Assembly: GCF_015206885.1 (NCBI RefSeq)
Contig: NZ_JADEXY010000030.1
Location: forward strand, 1 to 35,005
Direction of reading: 5' to 3'
Length of the DNA: 35,005 bases
Source: Microcystis aeruginosa LEGE 91341
GTDB taxonomy: Bacteria > Cyanobacteriota > Cyanobacteriia > Cyanobacteriales > Microcystaceae
In this document: one piece after another, positions 1,997 through 10,890 of the stretch
Position numbering within the stretch: the first letter of the stretch is position 1
Layout: each line of letters begins with the position of its first letter
Program-made: the position numbers and the translations under genes
Notes under the pieces: model-generated
Databases searched by the model: none
What the model saw: only the letters and a program-made list of their open reading frames with translations
What the model was told of the DNA's origin: nothing

Positions 1997-2995
1997 ATGC
2001 CCCTGATGACTTCTCATTGTCCCTTAAAAATTGGTATAGTTGGCACAGGGTTCGCCGCTCAACGTCGCGCTGAAAGCTTGCAAGCCGATGATCGCGCCCA
2101 GCTTCTGTACTTTAGCGGTAATAGTCCCGAATCGATCGCTAATTTCTCGCAAAAATACCAAATTTCTGCCCTAGATTCGGCAATAAGCCTGGCCAGTCAT
2201 CCTGATCTCGATCTGATTGTCATTGCCAACGTTAATCAGGCCCATGCCTCGATCGCCCGTACTGCTTTAAAATCCGGTAAGCACGTTATCGTCGAGTATC
2301 CTCTGGCTTTTCACCCGGCAGAGGCGGAAGAATTAATCACCTTAGCCGAAACCGAGAAGAAATTACTGCACGTCGAACATATTGAACTTTTGGGGGGACT
2401 CCATCAAACCCAACAGCAGCATTTAGCCAGCCTCGGCAATATTCACCTAGCCCGTTATACCACGATCTCCCCCGGCAGACCAGCACCCCGGCGCTGGACA
2501 TTTCATCGGGATTTATTCGGGTTTCCTTTTACTGCTGCCCTTTCTCGTATCCATCGCTTTACTAATTTATTTGGGGAAGTGGAGTCCGTATCCTGTCATT
2601 GTCGTTATTGGAATGCCCCGGAATCCGATTATTTTCTGGCCTGTTTGTGTGAGGCGCAGTTATTATTTAAAAATGGCTTAATTGCCGAAGTTACCTACGG
2701 CAAAGGCGAAGTTTTTTGGCAAAATGAGCGAACTTTCACTATTCATGGTGAGGGGGGCAGCTTAATTTTTGAAGGGGAAAAAGGGCAGTTAATTAATAGT
2801 GAAGGTAGCCAAGCTTTAGAAGTGGAAACCCGTCGCGGTCTTTTTGCCAAAGATACCGCCATGGTGCTAGATTATCTCTTCGATCGGGTTCCTCTTTATG
2901 TTACTCCCCAAGCCAGTCTTTATGCCCTACAAGTGGCCTATGCTGCCTATCAATCTTCTTTGTCGGGAAAAACAGTTTTTCTCGGGGCTAATTAA
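1997..2995 (+). CDS. bvdR: Biliverdin reductase (Gfo/Idh/MocA fold)
   Basis: A 332-residue NAD(P)H-dependent oxidoreductase. The Rossmann motif GIVGTGFAAQRRAE begins near residue 13. Further matches to cyanobacterial BvdR are GKHVIVEYPLA, the core LLHVEHIELLGG, PAPRRWTFH and EVTYGKGEVFWQNERTF. The agreement with Synechocystis BvdR that I recall runs along the whole length, which separates it from generic sugar dehydrogenases of the superfamily. It reduces biliverdin IXa to bilirubin and is thought to influence phycobiliprotein supply. Starts at 1997 or 2006 (Met4) are both possible. No operon partner is visible; a mobile-element remnant begins about ten bases after the stop. Confidence 0.88.
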   Translation: MPLMTSHCPLKIGIVGTGFAAQRRAESLQADDRAQLLYFSGNSPESIANFSQKYQISALDSAISLASHPDLDLIVIANVNQAHASIARTALKSGKHVIVEYPLAFHPAEAEELITLAETEKKLLHVEHIELLGGLHQTQQQHLASLGNIHLARYTTISPGRPAPRRWTFHRDLFGFPFTAALSRIHRFTNLFGEVESVSCHCRYWNAPESDYFLACLCEAQLLFKNGLIAEVTYGKGEVFWQNERTFTIHGEGGSLIFEGEKGQLINSEGSQALEVETRRGLFAKDTAMVLDYLFDRVPLYVTPQASLYALQVAYAAYQSSLSGKTVFLGAN

Positions 2996-3004
2996 ACCGA
3001 CTTA

Positions 3005-3216
3005 GGGCTTGCTGAATAATGGTAAAACCCTTTTAAAATAAGGCTTTTGACCTGTTAAAGTCCGATGTTAGTGCTGCGAAAATAGGATTGGGACTTTCAA
3101 GAACCTTGCATTATCCTTCTTTTAGTACACGCTTGGTACAAAAAAACAAGGGCAACAAAGCCCGAAACGACCGGCTACTGACTCCTACCCCCAGGAAAAA
3201 CTTTTTCAGCAGACCC
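3005..3216. mobile_element. Probable MITE / non-autonomous insertion element
   Basis: A segment of about 212 bp has imperfect terminal inverted repeats. The left end reads GGGCTTGCTGAATAA and the right end, reverse-complemented, reads GGGTCTGCTGAAAAA (12 of 15 match). CCGACTTAG occurs at 2997-3005 and again at 3215-3223, overlapping both ends, so a direct repeat of 6-9 bp flanks the element. There is no room for a transposase. Internally, AAAGTCC (3057-3063) pairs with GGACTTT (3091-3097). The right direct repeat contains the stop codon of the minus-strand permease gene. Confidence 0.6.
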
Positions 3217-3219
3217 GAC

Positions 3220-4170
3220 TTAGACTTTTTGAATTAACTTTCTGCCTAGTAAACCCTGGGGACGAACTAACAACATAATAAAGAGAATAGCAAAAGCGAT
3301 CGCTTCTCGATAACCGGAATATTCTGCGGGAACAAAAGCTTCGGCAATACCCAATAATAAACCACCGATTACTGCTCCGGGGATACTTCCCAATCCCCCT
3401 AAAACAATCACTCCTAAACCTTTTAATCCGAAAGCAATACCGAAATATGGACCAGCAATACTAACACTAGAACCGACTAAAGTTCCTGCTAAACCTGCCA
3501 AGGCACCACTAATAAAAAAGGTAATCACGATAAATTTTTCGGGATTGATCCCCAACAAACTGGCAGTGGTAACATCTTCAGCTACCGCTTGTAAAGCTTT
3601 GCCCATTTTGGTGAAATTAACCCAATAAGTTAGTAAAGCTACCATCACTGCTGAAACCAGAAAAATAATAATCTGAATTGTGCGAATTGCCACGGGGCGA
3701 TCGGCTGTACCAAAATTAATTGCAGGGGGAAGATTGCCATAAATATCATCGGGAAAAGTATAAATTTCTGCCCCGACTAAGTATTGAATAACATTGACAA
3801 TCACCACGGCTGCCCCTAGGCTAGAAACCAGAGTTAAGAGAGAATCGGAACCCCGTATCCGGAGAGGTTTAAAGGCTAATCTTTCCAGAAGAACTGAGGT
3901 GAAACCTGAAAGGATACAACCTAGCAAAAGTGCCAAAAAAAAGGGTAAGGAAAAGGGTAATTTGGCATTAGCTAATAAACCATTAAAACCGAAAACTCCC
4001 CCGGCTAGAGCGTAGGTAAAATAGGCACCGAGGGTAAAAATTGCGCCATGGGCAAAATTGATAATCCCTAAAATGGAAAAAATCAAAGTGTAACCGAGGG
4101 CAAAAATAGCATAGACACTACCGATCGATAAACCGTTTAAAACCTGTTGAAAAATTGTTACTAGATCCAT
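3220..4170 (-). CDS. Branched-chain/neutral amino-acid ABC transporter permease (LivH/NatD type)
   Basis: A 316-residue, very hydrophobic protein with about eight membrane segments. It shows LivH-family signatures: GLSIGSVYAIFALGYTLIF at the N-terminus, GIINFAHGAIFTLGAYF, and the cytoplasmic EAA-like loop near GINPEKFIVITFFISGALAG. The inner-membrane permease pairs with a LivM-type subunit, an ATPase and a periplasmic binding protein, none of which is in the window. In cyanobacteria the closest role is NatD of the N-I neutral amino-acid system, but the substrate cannot be read from sequence. It follows lgt on the same strand after 12 bp, so the two are probably co-transcribed. Its stop codon lies inside the direct repeat flanking the element at 3005-3216. 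Confidence 0.85.
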   Translation of the reverse strand: MDLVTIFQQVLNGLSIGSVYAIFALGYTLIFSILGIINFAHGAIFTLGAYFTYALAGGVFGFNGLLANAKLPFSLPFFLALLLGCILSGFTSVLLERLAFKPLRIRGSDSLLTLVSSLGAAVVIVNVIQYLVGAEIYTFPDDIYGNLPPAINFGTADRPVAIRTIQIIIFLVSAVMVALLTYWVNFTKMGKALQAVAEDVTTASLLGINPEKFIVITFFISGALAGLAGTLVGSSVSIAGPYFGIAFGLKGLGVIVLGGLGSIPGAVIGGLLLGIAEAFVPAEYSGYREAIAFAILFIMLLVRPQGLLGRKLIQKV

Positions 4171-4182
4171 TGTCGGGGTTAG

Positions 4183-5034
4183 CTAGGGTAACTTTTGATT
4201 ATAACTGACGGTCGCCACCACATCCGGTAAAGGACGCTGGAGTTTATATAACCAGAATAAACCGAAAAGACCGACAGCGATCGCTCCTAAACTAATTATT
4301 TGTGCCATTTTCAGAGGACCAAACATTAAACTATCGGTGCGTAGTCCCTCAATCCAGAATCTACCTAGACTGTAGGCGATAAAATAAACTAGGGTCAGGG
4401 TGCCAATTTTTAATTTACTAGGGTGTTTTAAACCCCAGAAAAATAGATAGATGAGTAGGGCAAAAACTGCCAGATTCCAGAGAGATTCGTAGAGAAAGGT
4501 GGGGTGAAAATAATCGACGGTGATATGTTTTAAAGGACGACTAGCGGGAGGAATAAACAACTTCCAAGGTAAATTAGTCGGACTGCCAAAAGCTTCCGAA
4601 TTAAAAAAGTTGCCCCAACGTCCGATCGCTTGACCGAGAATAACTGAAGGTGCGACTAGATCGAGTAATTGCCAAAGAGAAACCCGATTAATGCGGGCAA
4701 AGATTAGGGCCGCCAGCAAACCCCCGATAATTGCCCCGTGAATAGCGATACCTCCCTTCCAAATGGCAATAATATCGGCAGGATTTCGCGCGTATTCTTG
4801 CCACTGAAAGAGAACATAGTACAGACGGGCTGCAGGTATAGCCCCCACTACTAACCAAATGGCCAAATCAGCGATTAAATCGGGATTGATCGCTCTTTTT
4901 TGGGCTAGGTACTGGGAGAGGGTAACACCGAATAATACCGCCATAGCAATCAGAAATCCATACCAGCGCACCGAAATCGGTCCAATCTCCCAGAGAATCG
5001 GGCCAGGGGACTGAAAGACAAAACCTAAGAGCAT
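4183..5034 (-). CDS. lgt: Prolipoprotein diacylglyceryl transferase
   Basis: A 283-residue inner-membrane enzyme that transfers diacylglycerol from phosphatidylglycerol to the lipobox cysteine of prolipoproteins, the first step of lipoprotein maturation. The Lgt signature [13 protein letters not shown] is at residues 138-150, the conserved region [12 protein letters not shown] is at 94-105, and [10 protein letters not shown] is at the N-terminus. About seven membrane segments are present and the length is normal. The start at 5034 gives the usual N-terminus, although no strong ribosome-binding site is visible. It is the first gene of a probable two-gene minus-strand unit with the permease, and is divergent from tRNA-Leu. 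Confidence 0.95.
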
Positions 5035-5082
5035 AAAATTATTAAGAATAAAAAATTTTATCTTTCCTATAGTATCTTATGC

Positions 5083-5088
5083 TATGAT
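5083..5088 (+). promoter_or_regulatory. Possible -10 box of tRNA-Leu
   Basis: TATGAT lies 20 nt before the first tRNA base, a suitable place for a -10 element. The -35 region is not clear. Confidence 0.3.
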
Positions 5089-5107
5089 CAGATACAGTGC
5101 TATATTT

Positions 5108-5188
5108 GCGGATGTGGCGGAATTGGTAGACGCGCTAGATTTAGGTTCTAGTGTCTTTGATGTGTGGGTTCGAGTCCCTCCATCCGCA
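5108..5188 (+). tRNA. tRNA-Leu (anticodon UAG)
   Basis: The acceptor stem GCGGATG (5108-5114) pairs with CATCCGC (5181-5187), and the discriminator A is at 5188. The anticodon stem CTAGA / TCTAG encloses TTTAGGT, giving anticodon UAG, which reads CUA/CUG leucine codons. The T-arm contains GGTTCGAGTCC. The extra arm is long enough for a class II tRNA, total length 81 nt, and CCA is not encoded. The adjacent inserted unit starts 52 bp downstream. Confidence 0.97.
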
Positions 5189-5240
5189 TTGACCTTCGGG
5201 TCGATAAAGTGTAACCTGATTTGGCGTTGACGAGCGACGA

Positions 5241-5249
5241 CCCAAAAGG
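5241..5249. repeat. Left copy of 9-bp direct repeat flanking the actM-pfnM unit
   Basis: CCCAAAAGG directly precedes the left inverted arm. The same 9-mer in the same orientation directly follows the right arm at 7488-7496. The placement is that of a target-site duplication. Confidence 0.6.
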
Positions 5250-5406
5250 GTCTTCTAGTTTTTGTGTGGAAACGAGGTCTATACTGATAGTTTCGTCCGC
5301 GGCTCGACTGAGCTTCGCCGAACGTCAAAATAGTCCTACAAGTCTTGCTCAGTAAGGATTTTACAATTTTATGAGCAAAAAATATCACACCAAGTCGAGA
5401 AGATCT
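5250..5406 (+). repeat. Left inverted arm of the actM-pfnM unit
   Basis: About 157 bp that match, with gaps, the reverse complement of 7356-7487. The best block is a perfect 24-bp match, 5271-5294 against 7441-7464. The inner edge is a perfect 14-bp match, AAGTCGAGAAGATC at 5392-5405 against 7356-7369. Between them, blocks such as AAAATAG, AAGTCTTGC and GCAAAAA align. The left arm carries about 26 extra bases (within 5295-5326) with a small GCTC-GACT-GAGC hairpin. The arm holds no gene; a TACAAT at 5362-5367 could be a -10 box reading toward actM. Confidence 0.8.
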
Positions 5407-5451
5407 GTACAACGAATAGTTTAGCAAAAAATTGAAAAATAGGAGAAACAA

Positions 5452-6555
5452 ATGAGTGAAATCGTAATCGTAATTGATTGTGGCTCAGGCTTTATAAAAG
5501 CTGGTTTTGCAGGCGAGAGTAAGCCAAGGGTTGTCTTTCCGAGTGTTGTAGGTAGACCTAGACATCAGGGTGTACGAGTTGATAAAGATTCTTATGTTGG
5601 TGTGGAAGCACAAGAAAAACGGGGCGCACTTAAGATGCAATATCCTGTTGAACATGGCATTGTGACATATTGGGATGACTTTGAGAAAATACTTGATCAT
5701 ATTTTTTATAAAGCACTGAGAGTAGCCCCTGAAGAACATCTCATCTTCATAACAGAACCTCCGTTGAATCCTAAAGCCAATCGGGAGAAATTAACCCAGA
5801 CTTTATTTGAAACATTTAATGCACCAGGTATGTATCTTGGCATAGGTTCTGTTATGGCTGTTTATGCAGGTGGCAGAACAACAGGACTAGTGGCTGACTT
5901 GGGAGCGGGAGTTACTCATACCGTTCCCGTTTATGAAGGTTACGCAATACCTCATGCGGTTATCCGTTTGGACTTAGCAGGAGAAGATTTAACCGAGTAT
6001 CTAATGAAGCTATTGTCCCAAAGAGGCTACTCTTTGAACAGTTTCGACGACCGTGAAATGGTGCAGGACTTGAAAGAAAAATTATGCTATGTGGCGTTAA
6101 ATTTTGAAGAGGAAATGCAGACGACTGCTGGTCGTGAACAATCTTATACCCTAACTGACGGTCGGGAAATTAGGATTGGTGATGAATGCTCTCGCTGTGC
6201 TGAAACCCTGTTTCAACCCGCATTTATAGGGATGGAATCTGCTGGCATTCATGAAACTATTTACAACTCTATTATGAAATGCGATGCCGAGATTCGTAAT
6301 GAATTATTTGCCAACATCGTGCTTTCAGGTGGAACTTCAATGTTTCCAGGCTTCGCTGAAAGAATACAAAAGGAAATCAATGCCTTAGCACCGCAAAATA
6401 CGCAAGTTAATGTCATAGCTGTTCCTGAGCGTCAATATTCGACATGGATTGGTGGGGCAATGCTGGCAGCTTCTGATGATTTTGAGGCAATGTGCATTAG
6501 TAAACAAGATTACGATGAAAACGGGCCAAGTATTGTGCATAAAAAATGTTTCTAA
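5452..6555 (+). CDS. actM: Eukaryote-type actin (ActM)
   Basis: A 367-residue protein that aligns without large gaps to eukaryotic actin (375 residues), not to bacterial MreB/ParM. Conserved blocks include [44 protein letters not shown] and the C-terminus SIVHKKCF. Phosphate loop 1 is DCGSG (actin DNGSG). Loop 2 is DLGAG (actin DSGDG), so the residue matching Asp157 is Ala152. The residue matching Gln137 is Gly132, while the equivalent of His161 (His156) remains. The DNase-binding loop is three residues shorter, and the region near actin residue 235 is also shortened. A strong AGGAGA ribosome-binding site lies at 5441-5446. Acquisition from a eukaryote, polymerisation and a partnership with the downstream profilin are established for the PCC 7806 homologue. 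The missing catalytic residues suggest altered ATP hydrolysis. Confidence 0.97.
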
Positions 6556-6612
6556 TGTTTTATAGCGGTTTTCAGTCTAATAAGGTATAGTAAATCCCTT
6601 GATAGATAGGCG

Positions 6613-6701
6613 TTTCAGCGTTTCAATCGGGACTCACTTGTGTGAAAATCGCTGAAATACAACATAACTCTGTTACCGTAATTGGCAGATGTGCCAATTA
6701 C
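6613..6701 (+). promoter_or_regulatory. Two hairpins in the actM-pfnM gap
   Basis: TTTCAGCG (6613-6620) pairs with CGCTGAAA (6650-6657). GTAATTGGC (6678-6686) pairs perfectly with GCCAATTAC (6693-6701) around a 6-nt loop. Neither is followed by a T-tract, so they look like mRNA structures or operators rather than intrinsic terminators. A third small stem, AGGCG/CGCCT, lies at 6746-6759. Confidence 0.45.
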
Positions 6702-6844
6702 AAGCCGTATGCTAATATAAGAATGGTTTTATTAGTTTCTGACAAAGGCGAAAACGCCTGTGCGGATTTTGAAAATCACCCCATATATATTCACTATGTA
6801 TGGTAGATTAAAGGCTGAATAAAAGCTGAATTAAAGAGGTTTAT

Positions 6845-7264
6845 ATGTATTACGACAGTTACATTGATAATTTGTGCGCTCAATCAAATGATTCCACAGG
6901 GAAAGCCCATTGTGATAAAGCGGCTATTATTTCGCTAGATGGCGGTGCGGCTTTGACTTCTCCAAATCATCCGCATGGTATTCAATTATCACCTTCGGAA
7001 GGGCAGAAAATTGCGCGTATGATGAAATCATCAGATTTTAGTTCATCGCAGGCAAATGGTATTCTTTTAGAAGGTGTGAAATATCTATTTTTGCGCGAGG
7101 ATGGCAACGTCGCTCTTGCAAAAAGGAAAGGCCATGGCGCAATAACGATACAAAAATCCAAAAGTGCGGTTGTGATAGGGCATACTGCTGAAGGTTATCA
7201 ACAGGGAAATACCAATAAAGCGGTCGGCATTATTGCAGATTATTTAGATAGTCGTGGCATTTAA
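6845..7264 (+). CDS. pfnM: Eukaryote-type profilin (PfnM)
   Basis: A 139-residue protein with the profilin fold order: YIDNL helix, AAIISLDG strand, then ANGILLEGVKYLFLRED, GAITIQKSKSAVVIGHT and NKAVGIIADYL. This is the eukaryotic actin-monomer-binding protein. The N-terminal Trp of the poly-proline site is Tyr here (MYYDSYIDNL), and the second one (usually in a G-x-x-W-A context) is replaced in DGGAALTS. Poly-proline binding is therefore probably lost. An insertion around SPNHPHGIQL makes it longer than most profilins. A ribosome-binding site AAAGAGG is near 6833-6839. It lies 289 bp after actM on the same strand and ends in an intrinsic terminator, so it probably forms a functional pair with actin, as described for PCC 7806. 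Confidence 0.95.
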   Translation: MYYDSYIDNLCAQSNDSTGKAHCDKAAIISLDGGAALTSPNHPHGIQLSPSEGQKIARMMKSSDFSSSQANGILLEGVKYLFLREDGNVALAKRKGHGAITIQKSKSAVVIGHTAEGYQQGNTNKAVGIIADYLDSRGI

Positions 7265-7273
7265 CAAATGGAC

Positions 7274-7312
7274 AAAGGTGGATAAAAATGCTGATCCGCC
7301 TTTTGTTTTTTT
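7274..7312 (+). terminator. Intrinsic terminator of pfnM
   Basis: A 10-bp stem, AAAGGTGGAT (7274-7283) with ATCCGCCTTT (7294-7303), contains one G-T pair and a 10-nt loop. It is followed by a T-rich run to 7312. It begins 10 nt after the pfnM stop and lies inside the inverted arms. Confidence 0.85.
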
Positions 7313-7355
7313 AAACAATAGACCTCGACCTAATATTATCTCAAGACCAAAAGTG

Positions 7356-7487
7356 GATCTTCTCGACTTTGTGTAATAATTTTTGCTTATGTAATCGTGA
7401 AATGCTTATCTGGCAAGACTTTTAGGGCTATTTTGCTGAAGAAACTATCAGTATAGACCTCGTTGGCACACAGAAACCAGAAGAACG
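7356..7487 (-). repeat. Right inverted arm of the actM-pfnM unit
   Basis: About 132 bp, the inverted partner of 5250-5406. It lacks the roughly 26 extra bases present in the left arm. It holds no gene, although short open stretches exist. Its outer end is immediately followed by the second CCCAAAAGG at 7488-7496. Confidence 0.8.
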
Positions 7488-7496
7488 CCCAAAAGG
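7488..7496. repeat. Right copy of 9-bp direct repeat
   Basis: CCCAAAAGG in the same orientation as 5241-5249, directly outside the right arm. Confidence 0.6.
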
Positions 7497-7572
7497 AAAA
7501 CCTGTTAATTTCCATTTTTGAGCCTCCGGTTCAGAAGATTGGTATGAGATTTAACGTTGAAAAATCTCCCTT

Positions 7573-8217
7573 TTATTTTTTCAACTGACTTCTTACCCAA
7601 TTCCGAAACGCTTTTACTAAGTCTAGGTAATCTGTCTGGCCAGCTTGTGGTAAAAATATAGCAAGTTCTAAGATGGGTAAATTAGGAAAAAACTGACTGG
7701 TTGGGGAGGTGATATAAGTGCCATTTTGTAATTGTTGGATGACCAGAGATTCCCCATCATAAACCCAAACCTCTGCTACACCTAGATCTGCATAAACCTG
7801 AAGGCGATTTTGAGAACTGCTGGTGACATCAATTTCTATGACTAAATCTGGTGCAGGGTCTTCATTTAAGTCCAGTAGCTTTTTCCCCCGAACCGCCTCA
7901 ATATTATCAATGTAAAAGCATTCATCTGGTTCTGCACCACTCAATTTAGGGCGTTTAAAGGTGGTAGAACCAAGGGGATAAATCGGGACTACTGATTCTT
8001 CCGCTAGGGTTTCGACAAAGCGACCGATGAGGGTTTTACTAAATTCGTGTTCTGGGGAAGGAGCCATGATTTCTAAATTGCCACGATTGTAGGTCAGCCG
8101 CAGACGGCGATCGCTCATTTCTTCTAGCAGCGTTTCGTAGGTTTCCCAGCTAATCCCTGACAGGTGAATTATTTCAGCCGGTGGTGCGGGCAGTGTTACA
8201 GTCATAGATTCAAGCAA
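7573..8217 (-). CDS. Uma2 (DUF820) family putative restriction-like endonuclease
   Basis: A 214-residue protein of a family strongly expanded in filamentous and bloom-forming cyanobacteria. The N-terminal part has the usual W-x-x-Y-E-x-L-L and RGNLEIMAPSPEHE segments. The PD-(D/E)XK-like core includes EPDECFYI (Asp98) and PDLVIEIDVTSSSQNRL (Asp124, Glu128). As in many cyanobacterial members, the lysine after the acidic pair is not evident. The biological role of these proteins is unsettled. The gene is upstream-adjacent to the actM unit's right end and lies 54 bp downstream of clpB on the same strand, so readthrough from clpB is possible. Confidence 0.85.
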   Translation of the reverse strand: MLESMTVTLPAPPAEIIHLSGISWETYETLLEEMSDRRLRLTYNRGNLEIMAPSPEHEFSKTLIGRFVETLAEESVVPIYPLGSTTFKRPKLSGAEPDECFYIDNIEAVRGKKLLDLNEDPAPDLVIEIDVTSSSQNRLQVYADLGVAEVWVYDGESLVIQQLQNGTYITSPTSQFFPNLPILELAIFLPQAGQTDYLDLVKAFRNWVRSQLKK

Positions 8218-8271: not shown

Positions 8272-10890
8272 TTAAGCAGTTACTACCGGAGAAGCTAACC
8301 GTTTAAAGGTCAATCTTTCATCGGCCACATCGACAAAAATCGTGTCTCCCCCTTTGAATTCGCCGCGCAGAATTGCCTTAGCGATCGGAGTTTCCACATA
8401 TCTTTGTACTGCCCGTTTTAGGGGTCGCGCACCGTACACTGGATCGTAACCAATTTCTGCTAGATAATCGAGGGCAATATCGGCAAATTTCAGGGCTATT
8501 TTTTGTTCCATCAAGCGAGCGCTGAGATTGGCTATCTGTAGTTTGACAATCGATCGCAGTTGTGCTTTCTGTAAACTATGGAAAATGATCGTTTCATCGA
8601 TACGATTGAGGAATTCGGGACGGAAACTATTCCGCATTGCTTCCATCACCCGCGCCTGCATTTCTTCATAACGAGACTCATCACCAGCCACGTCTAAAAT
8701 GTATTGAGAACCGATATTACTGGTCATAATAATGATGGTATTTTTGAAATCAACCAGATGACCTTGAGAGTCGGTTAAGCGCCCATCGTCAAGGATTTGT
8801 AACATAACGTTAAAAACGTCGGGATGGGCTTTTTCAATCTCATCAAAGAGGATGACAGAGTAGGGACGGCGCCGGATTGCCTCGGTTAATTGGCCTCCTT
8901 CATCGTAGCCGACGTATCCCGGAGGCGCACCCATGAGACGGGAAACGCTGTGTTTTTCCATGTATTCCGACATATCGATGCGAACTAGAGCCTCTTCCGT
9001 GTCAAAGAGATTGCGCGCTAAAGCTTTCGCCAATTCTGTCTTACCAACCCCCGTCGGACCGAGGAAAATAAAGCTGGCCGTGGGACGGTTGGGATCCGAT
9101 AAACCAGCGCGGGAACGTTGAATCGCTTCGGCTACGGCTGTGACTGCTTCCTCTTGACCGATGACACTTTCGTGTAATTCGTCTTCCAGATTGAGGAGTT
9201 TTTCTTTTTCCGATTCGATTAATTTATTGAGAGGAATTCCCGTCCATTTCGAGATAATTTCGGCGATATCCGATTCGAGAACTTCTTCCCTTAATAAACT
9301 TTTACCGGTGGTTTGTTTGTCAGCTAATTGGGTTTCTAGGGCGGACATTTGGCGCTGCAGATCGGTTAATTTTCCGAACTTTAATTCGGCGGCGCGATTA
9401 TAATCATAATCTCGTTCGGCCTGTTGGATTTCTAGATTAACTTGTTCGATCGCTTCTTTAACGCCACGAACTTTATCGATAATCTCTTTTTCTCCTTGCC
9501 ATTGGGCATTTAATCCCGATTGTTCTTCCTTGAGGTTAGCCAGTTCTTTTTCTAACTTTTCTAACCGTTCTCGCGAAGCTGGATCGTATTCCCGTTGTAG
9601 GGAAAGTCTTTCCATTTCTAGCTGGAGAATTTTGCGATCAATTTCATCGAGTTCTTCCGGTTTAGAGGTGATTTCCATCTTCAATTTGGCCGCCGCTTCA
9701 TCAACTAAATCAATGGCCTTATCGGGCAAAAAGCGATCGCTAATATAACGATTAGAAAGCAGTGCCGCTGCCACTAAAGCATTATCGGCAATTTTCACCC
9801 CATGATGCACCTCATAACGTTCTTTAAGACCGCGAAGAATTGAAATAGTATCGACCACATTTGGTTCATCCACTAAAACCTCTTGGAAGCGTCTTTCTAA
9901 TGCCGCATCTTTTTCGATATATTTGCGGTACTCATCGAGGGTAGTGGCCCCAATACAACGCAATTCACCCCGGGCTAACATTGGTTTTAATAAATTGCCC
10001 GCATCCATTGCCCCTTGAGTGGCTCCCGCACCTACAACGGTATGAATTTCATCAATAAACATGATGATATTGCCTTGGGACTCGGTGACTTCTTTGAGGA
10101 CAGCTTTTAATCTTTCCTCAAACTCTCCGCGATATTTTGCTCCCGCAATTAAGCCACCTAAATCGAGAGAAATGAGAGTACGATCTAACAGAGATTCTGG
10201 CACATCACGGTTAATAATCCGCTGGGCTAATCCTTCGACAATGGCTGTTTTTCCTACTCCCGGTTCTCCGATTAAAACCGGGTTATTTTTAGTTCTGCGA
10301 GAGAGAATTTGAATCGTGCGACGGATTTCGTCATCCCGTCCAATTACGGGGTCTAATTTACCTTCTCGTGCCAATTGGGTGAGATCTCGCCCGTATTTTT
10401 CTAGGGCTTCATATTTGCCTTCTGGATTCTGATCGGTCACTTTTTGACTACCTCTGACTTGTTGAATAATTTCTTTGAGTTTGCTTTCGGTAAGTCCGAA
10501 TTCTTGAAAAATATTTTTACCGAAGCGATCATCTTTAGCGTAACCTAAAATCAAATGCTCGATCGAGATAAAGTCATCTCCAAATTCTCGGCGATAATTT
10601 TCCGCTCGATCGAGTAAACTATCTAAACTACGACCTAAATAAATCGAGTCACCGGGGTTAGATATTTTCGGTTGACGACGGATAAAGTCATCGGTTCGAT
10701 CCCGCAAACGGGCTAGACTAATATTAGCTTTACTAAAGACACTGCCCGCTAATCCCTCCTGTTCAAGAAGGGCTTTCATTAGATGTTCGCTTTCGATTTG
10801 TTGCTGGCTGTTCTGTTTGGCAATGTCCGGCGTTTTGACGATTGCCTCCCAAGCTTTTTCCGTAAATTGTTGTGGATTGGTTGGCTGCAT
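8272..10890 (-). CDS. clpB: ClpB disaggregase (Hsp100)
   Basis: An 872-residue cytosolic AAA+ hexameric chaperone that threads aggregated proteins together with DnaK. Its order is an N-domain (1-145); NBD1 with Walker A GEPGVGKT at 208-215 and Walker B MFIDEIH; a middle-domain coiled coil (about 410-530) rich in Glu/Arg/Leu; and NBD2 with a second Walker [10 protein letters not shown] near 610, plus [13 protein letters not shown] and the C-terminal [14 protein letters not shown]. It has no ClpP-binding IGF loop. The length is normal. Cyanobacteria carry two ClpB paralogues, and I cannot tell which this is. No CIRCE-type inverted repeat is visible in the upstream region. Confidence 0.97.

Follow-up and report, generated by a model that had tools for sequence, protein, structure and literature searches.

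How a eukaryote-type actin gene and a profilin gene came to lie between a tRNA gene and a Uma2-family gene of Microcystis aeruginosa LEGE 91341 is the question raised by this locus. The window analyzed, a stretch of 35,005 nucleotides (contig C241 of an assembly of 4,485,075 bases in 280 contigs), carries actM at 5452–6555 (plus strand; 367 aa; PF00022, E 2.4e-124) and pfnM at 6845–7264 (plus strand; 139 aa; PF00235, E 5.5e-30). The left neighbor of the insertion site was tRNA-Leu (5107–5189, plus strand, found with ARAGORN), and the right neighbor was the Uma2-family gene (7573–8217, minus strand, PF05685). The pair is a published case of eukaryote-type cytoskeletal genes in a bacterium, whose setting was described, in the accessible parts of the sources, merely as a genomic island. 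These accessible parts apply that term to the same two genes in M. aeruginosa PCC 7806 (PMC3254629, PMC2442094), restrict them to Microcystis of the Braakman reservoir (PMC2442094), report them as missing from two other strains (PMC5996124) and mention them as horizontally acquired (PMC3741299). In a word search, the accessible text of PMC3254629 contained no "inverted repeat", "transpos" or "insertion", and that of PMC2442094 no "inverted repeat" or "MITE".

The segment from 5248 to 7487 is very probably a non-autonomous composite transposon, moved as one block by a transposase acting in trans. The genes were bracketed by two inverted arms, at 5248–5406 (plus strand) and 7355–7487 (minus strand), each a full copy of one non-coding MITE with ends GGCTCTTCT. 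The inverted arms, which an earlier note on this DNA had put at 132–157 bp, were real, and their lengths came to 159 bp on the left (a subtype with a 26-bp insert) and 133 bp on the right; the perfect 24-bp block that it had placed at 5271–5294 and 7441–7464 was exact. A repeat search returned two pairs of inverted blocks, 5251–5300/7435–7484 (88% complementary) and 5326–5405/7356–7435 (81% complementary). The outer ends of the unit (GGGTCTTCTAG on the left arm, CGTTCTTCTGG on the right arm) were imperfect, GGG and CGT replacing GGC. At the inner ends, AGAAGATCT (left) and AGAAGATCC (right) were found where AGAAGAGCC was expected, both arms sharing the same change, AGAAGATC for AGAAGAGC, which may have disabled movement of the single copies. 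Promoter-like sites gave no signal in 5060–7600 (9, versus 6.8 with sd 2.5 in shuffles).

Within the 35-kb window, the 9-mer CCCAAAAGG had exactly two occurrences, starting at 5241 and 7488 and oriented alike, and no reverse complement of it was found. Direct copies outside the arms, as the earlier note had claimed, were therefore found, and what it had taken for a 9-bp target-site duplication resolved into 7 bp, CCCAAAA (left copy 5241–5247, right copy 7488–7494), plus GG. The left GG (5248–5249) is the end of the element, and the right GG (7495–7496) was assigned to target DNA because the empty sites of other genomes have it. Once the 7-bp rule of the family was applied, the unit spanned 2240 bp.

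The arms belonged to an abundant repeat family. With the left arm as DNA query, 30 matches were obtained in its own genome, 20 of them at least 78 bases long, both arms included. Aligned copies had the ends GGCTCTTCTGGTTTCTGTGTGG... and ...CAAAGTCGAGAAGAGCC and a body of mostly 132–133 bp, with an insert of 26–34 bp in a few copies. The best of 27 copies compared with the left arm was L131 (85.5%), and the right arm was best matched by L045 (93%). The two arms were 81% identical to each other, the lowest of the right arm's 27 comparisons; with matches of up to 93% between the right arm and other copies, the arms are therefore independent copies, and their reading as one duplicated palindrome was rejected on the alignment. 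Finding two copies within 120 bp either side of one gene pair had a probability of about 3e-7, on the assumption of 20 copies placed randomly in 4.485 Mb.

Matches to the right arm were confined to Microcystis, in 10 of the 291 genomes of the order (1 of 122 genera). One plasmid record was matched (Microcystis aeruginosa NIES-2481, 82%) and no phage record. Each of the 12 genomes searched in the genus (the own genome included, one per species) contained MITE-type matches, at least 25 to 58 per genome with flank matches included. The insert of the long subtype (window 5297–5326) had matches of 26–30 bases at eight further places of the genome and looks, by its sequence, like a separate small repeat by itself. 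The locus L080 was considered as an autonomous parent and rejected: MITE ends enclosed another insertion, whose ORFs were, by reading, not ISL3-like.

The family duplicated 7 bp of its target. An exact 7-bp direct repeat was found outside the ends in 43 of 67 two-ended elements, a set drawn from sampled loci rather than whole genomes, with identical flank pairs counted once, which included both arms, five elements of IS size, the 309-bp subtype and weak elements such as L110. The other 24 displayed no duplication, and no length other than 7 was seen among lengths of 4 to 9, so that a duplication of 9 bp, present in none of the 67, was rejected. In an earlier and smaller set, the 7-bp match was found in 17 of 25 elements (identical flank pairs again counted once); one of the 17, L049, had a tandem 7-mer as its target and so matched at 14 as well. 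Flanking 7-mers of different elements agreed in only 2 of 4422 pairings, so the agreement of the outer 7-mers of the unit is not a matter of chance.

Neither arm had a duplication of its own in the family register, and the pair shared the outer CCCAAAA, a duplication of family length at the outermost ends, with the caveat of a near-copy of the 9-mer (ACCAAAAGT) inside the right arm. In clusters of the MITE, own 7-bp duplications were found at three of three copies (L119) and two of two (L120), and at neither copy of an adjacent pair in G009 (L083); at L121 no two-ended element was found. The lack of an own duplication is only weak evidence, because 24 of the 67 elements and the L083 pair also lacked one, and the en bloc reading is carried by the outer 7-mer common to both arms and by the empty sites. 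At the L083 pair (2855–3388), the downstream 7-mers of the two MITEs were reverse-complementary (AGCAAGG / CCTTGCT), a pattern that an inversion could produce.

Relatives displayed the target site without the unit. When the genomes were compared with the joined flanks and with the two filled junctions, the uninterrupted site scored above either junction in 9 of the 11 other Microcystis genomes (G001, G003, G004 and G006–G011); for 8 of these 9, the sequences of the sites were also extracted. All nine had a single copy of CCCAAAAGG, exact in seven and variant in two (CCGAAAAGG in G003, one extra A in G006), and in G010 two additional G came after the exact 9-mer. The overlap of the two flank matches in G001 and G011 was 9 bases, exactly the 9-mer, and the Uma2 side followed directly, with a gap of 39 bases in G010; the Uma2 gene itself adjoined the empty site in these three genomes. 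The site was chromosomal in G001, a relative assembled as a single contig. In G002 and G005 the target stretch after the tRNA was missing. At this position, the 11 other genomes showed neither the actin-profilin unit nor a MITE on its own. The empty-site test that the earlier note had proposed (one 9-mer between tRNA-Leu and Uma2, no arm present on its own) thus came out in favor of insertion.

Coding DNA of actM-pfnM was restricted, among the matches listed for the 12 genomes, to the own genome, where it occupied one place, and none of these matches revealed the unit at a second place. The matches listed for the 11 others fell within query positions 1101–1218, which correspond to a second, unrelated Microcystis repeat of about 100 bp and its edges. 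This repeat of MITE type lay between actM and pfnM (window 6561–6657, plus strand, edges approximate), was of the TATAGCGGTTTTCA...TGAAAACCGCTATA type and had a degenerate right end. Since the unit contains Microcystis repeats of two kinds, we infer a period of residence in Microcystis.

An ISL3-family transposase with ends similar to those of the arms was encoded elsewhere in the same genome. Exact GGCTCTTCTSG ends numbered 64 in G009, versus 6 for the reversed pattern, and 20 regions were taken there, chiefly at ends for which no partner was apparent, so as to cover part of the lone ends. Four of the loci (L073, L075, L079, L090) were two-ended IS copies with ends GGCTCTTCTGGTTTTCGTGTG / GGCTCTTCTAGGTTCTGTGTG: L073 and L075 measured 1245 bp, L090 was degenerate at 1369 bp, and L079 was interrupted by other sequence. 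Terminal inverted repeats of the MITE matched these elements: in a comparison of the ends alone, the two IS ends had 4 and 5 mismatches in 25 bases to the left MITE end. The duplication length was also the same, 7 bp, in two of five IS-sized elements (L073 and L075), with none in L090, L105 and L106; the flanks of L079 agreed over 7 bases by eye. In G009, L075 encoded an uninterrupted protein of 384 aa (PF01610) with ISL3 DDE, zinc-ribbon and HTH domains. The own genome harbored a copy 97% identical to this gene and free of stops (C218:26162–27304), with similar ends on both sides, the first nine bases of one end including a mismatch, and another copy on C244 with two stops; the 7-bp duplication was absent from these two IS copies (L105 and L106). 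The copies of the family and this ISL3 gene agree with the earlier suggestion that the arms are mobile repeats served by a transposase in trans, and the own-genome enzyme could act on their ends.

Two separate copies of the ISL3-type MITE of Microcystis would thus have come to flank actM-pfnM, one inverted relative to the other. A transposase in trans, most likely of the ISL3 family and with matching ends, would then have used the two outward-facing ends, and the whole block would have moved into the spacer between tRNA-Leu and Uma2, duplicating CCCAAAA. Given the 7-bp rule and the empty sites, the unit most likely moved whole on its outer ends, presumably in a single event. With the MITE matched only in Microcystis among the 291 genomes, what the unit displays is movement inside one genome of this genus or from one to another, and not arrival from a eukaryote. 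The earlier note had proposed that the genes entered, or moved within, the genome on a mobilized unit; the empty sites bear out the movement, and entry into the genome on the unit stays conjectural.

The alternative that retains most weight, and is still unlikely, is a stepwise assembly, in which CCCAAAAGG first received the right MITE alone, the left MITE and the genes being added beside it later by a second insertion or a rearrangement. It draws on the near-copy ACCAAAAGT (7346–7354), which lay directly inside the right arm and agreed with the outer CCCAAAAGG at 7 of 9 positions, so that a duplication of the right arm's own is possible there. Of the 34996 9-mers of the window, 62 were as close to CCCAAAAGG as ACCAAAAGT. 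The straight 7-bp register gave no match, a shift of 1 bp being required at each end, and a solo MITE was found in none of the nine genomes having the site. If the later step was a circle integrated by homologous recombination, the inverted arms speak against it; such an integration would leave direct arms. With transposition of the whole block preferred, ACCAAAAGT may reflect chance or be the trace of an earlier single insertion.

Still less probable is delivery of the genes by a genomic island of phage or plasmid type, suggested for PCC 7806 in the accessible part of PMC3254629, a reading that also fits the adjoining tRNA gene. The unit had no match among plasmids (near mode) or phages (distant mode), profilin had none among phages or plasmids and actin none among plasmids, and viral contigs contained no close relative of either protein. 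This evidence concerns the last move, and an earlier viral step could have preceded it. That two MITEs merely happened to insert independently near an older actM-pfnM island is scarcely credible: the family is abundant and forms clusters of 2–3 copies within a few kilobases (L119, L120), but the empty sites stop at the outer MITE ends and the outer 7-mers agree, versus 2 of 4422 pairings for different elements.

Transposition of the MITE-bounded block is a mechanism of a known kind. Composite structures bounded by Tn3-derived MITEs, the TIME-COMPs, are described in the accessible part of PMC13367494: as in the Microcystis unit, two non-coding MITEs in direct or inverted orientation bracket a cargo, an outer direct repeat is present and a transposase is required in trans. 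TIME-COMPs duplicate 5 bp (sometimes 6) and carry resistance genes (PMC13367494, accessible part), whereas the Microcystis unit duplicated 7 bp, was bounded by ISL3-matching MITEs and carried eukaryote-type actin and profilin; in G001 its site lies on the chromosome. The unit is thus TIME-COMP-like in structure, and assignment to the Tn3-derived TIME-COMPs themselves was rejected on the duplication length and on the ISL3 transposase with similar ends. An IS-bounded composite transposon was rejected as well, arms of 159 and 133 bp being too short for a transposase gene, and a Tn7/CAST-type insertion near the tRNA was dropped given the 7-bp duplication and the MITE ends. Other MITE-flanked cargo is reviewed in PMC10969869, as far as its accessible part goes.

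The closest published repeat comes from M. aeruginosa PCC 7806: a MITE of 187 nt that the accessible part of PMC11448079 assigns to ISL3 transposases. It is alike in genus, in ISL3-type ends starting GGCTCTTC, in the lack of a transposase gene and in its many copies, and it differs in its ends (GGCTCTTCG versus GGCTCTTCT), its repeats (8 bp versus 7 bp) and its length (187 nt versus 133/159 nt). A word search of the accessible text of PMC11448079 gave no occurrence of "actin" or "profilin". The unit is a real and precisely bounded composite transposon with eukaryote-type cargo; within the open literature searched, it is new in its host, its cargo and its type of MITE, and a prior description may exist. 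With a precise unit, empty sites and a matching transposase, the last step of the actM-pfnM story becomes testable at the bench. If the proposed movement is true, short non-coding repeats of a cyanobacterium are able to mobilize functional genes of eukaryote type.

The cargo was rare and not unique to Microcystis, as indicated by a Planktothrix pair and by few hits among 386 sampled cyanobacterial genomes. Profilin matches were found in two of these (the own genome and G363, 57%) and actin matches at E 1e-20 also in two (the own genome and G113). In an alignment of 14 sequences, ActM shared 66% identity with human cytoplasmic actin. A search of genome contigs with ActM returned 12 loci on records titled as bacterial, 10 of which were metagenome-assembled; two (L094 and L091) were so close to human actin (89% and 84% identity) that eukaryotic contamination is possible. 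Homologues of eukaryotic actin on bacterial-titled contigs (L091–L101), long scaffolds of Thiosymbion and Sessilibacter included, were 39–64% identical to ActM in the 10 that were compared out of 11, L097 being excluded because it matched in two frames; some of these could be contamination.

A significant profilin match lay beside only 1 of the 12 actin loci, in Planktothrix sp. PCC 11201 (83% protein identity), where 609 bp, including an intergenic part upstream of pfnM, had 78% DNA identity. Inverted arms of the MITE kind were not found there between 4500 and 9500. Between the two genes, a stretch of about 110 bp in Microcystis, mostly the second MITE-type repeat, had as its counterpart about 340 bp in Planktothrix that showed no BLAST similarity. 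The armless orthologous pair splits the route of the genes into cyanobacteria from their route to the insertion site. A wider reading, tentative and on balance doubtful, treats actin-profilin as a mobile accessory module circulating between cyanobacterial genera (Planktothrix, Microcystis and a third with profilin alone) rather than a single eukaryote-to-Microcystis transfer; in Microcystis it would have become the cargo of a still mobilizable MITE-bounded transposon able to hop between strains.

In G363 the profilin gene was located at a contig end (L123:8–430), in the same order and 57% identical to PfnM, and no actin match at E 1e-20 was obtained in that genome. The Planktothrix pair (L102:5977–7699) lay between direct copies of a Uma2-like gene (4165–4758 and 8309–8884), whose identity was 98% across 265 compared bases, in a neighborhood that by eye also contained toxin-antitoxin-like genes. 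The actin homologues of Planktothrix (L102:5977–6750) and of G113 (L124:4331–5128, minus strand) measured 257 and 265 aa, and both lacked the stretches aligned roughly to actM residues 32–61 and 172–261, which we take to be about the location of actin subdomains 2 and 4. Judged by their alignment, these two proteins are possible core-only mini-actins.
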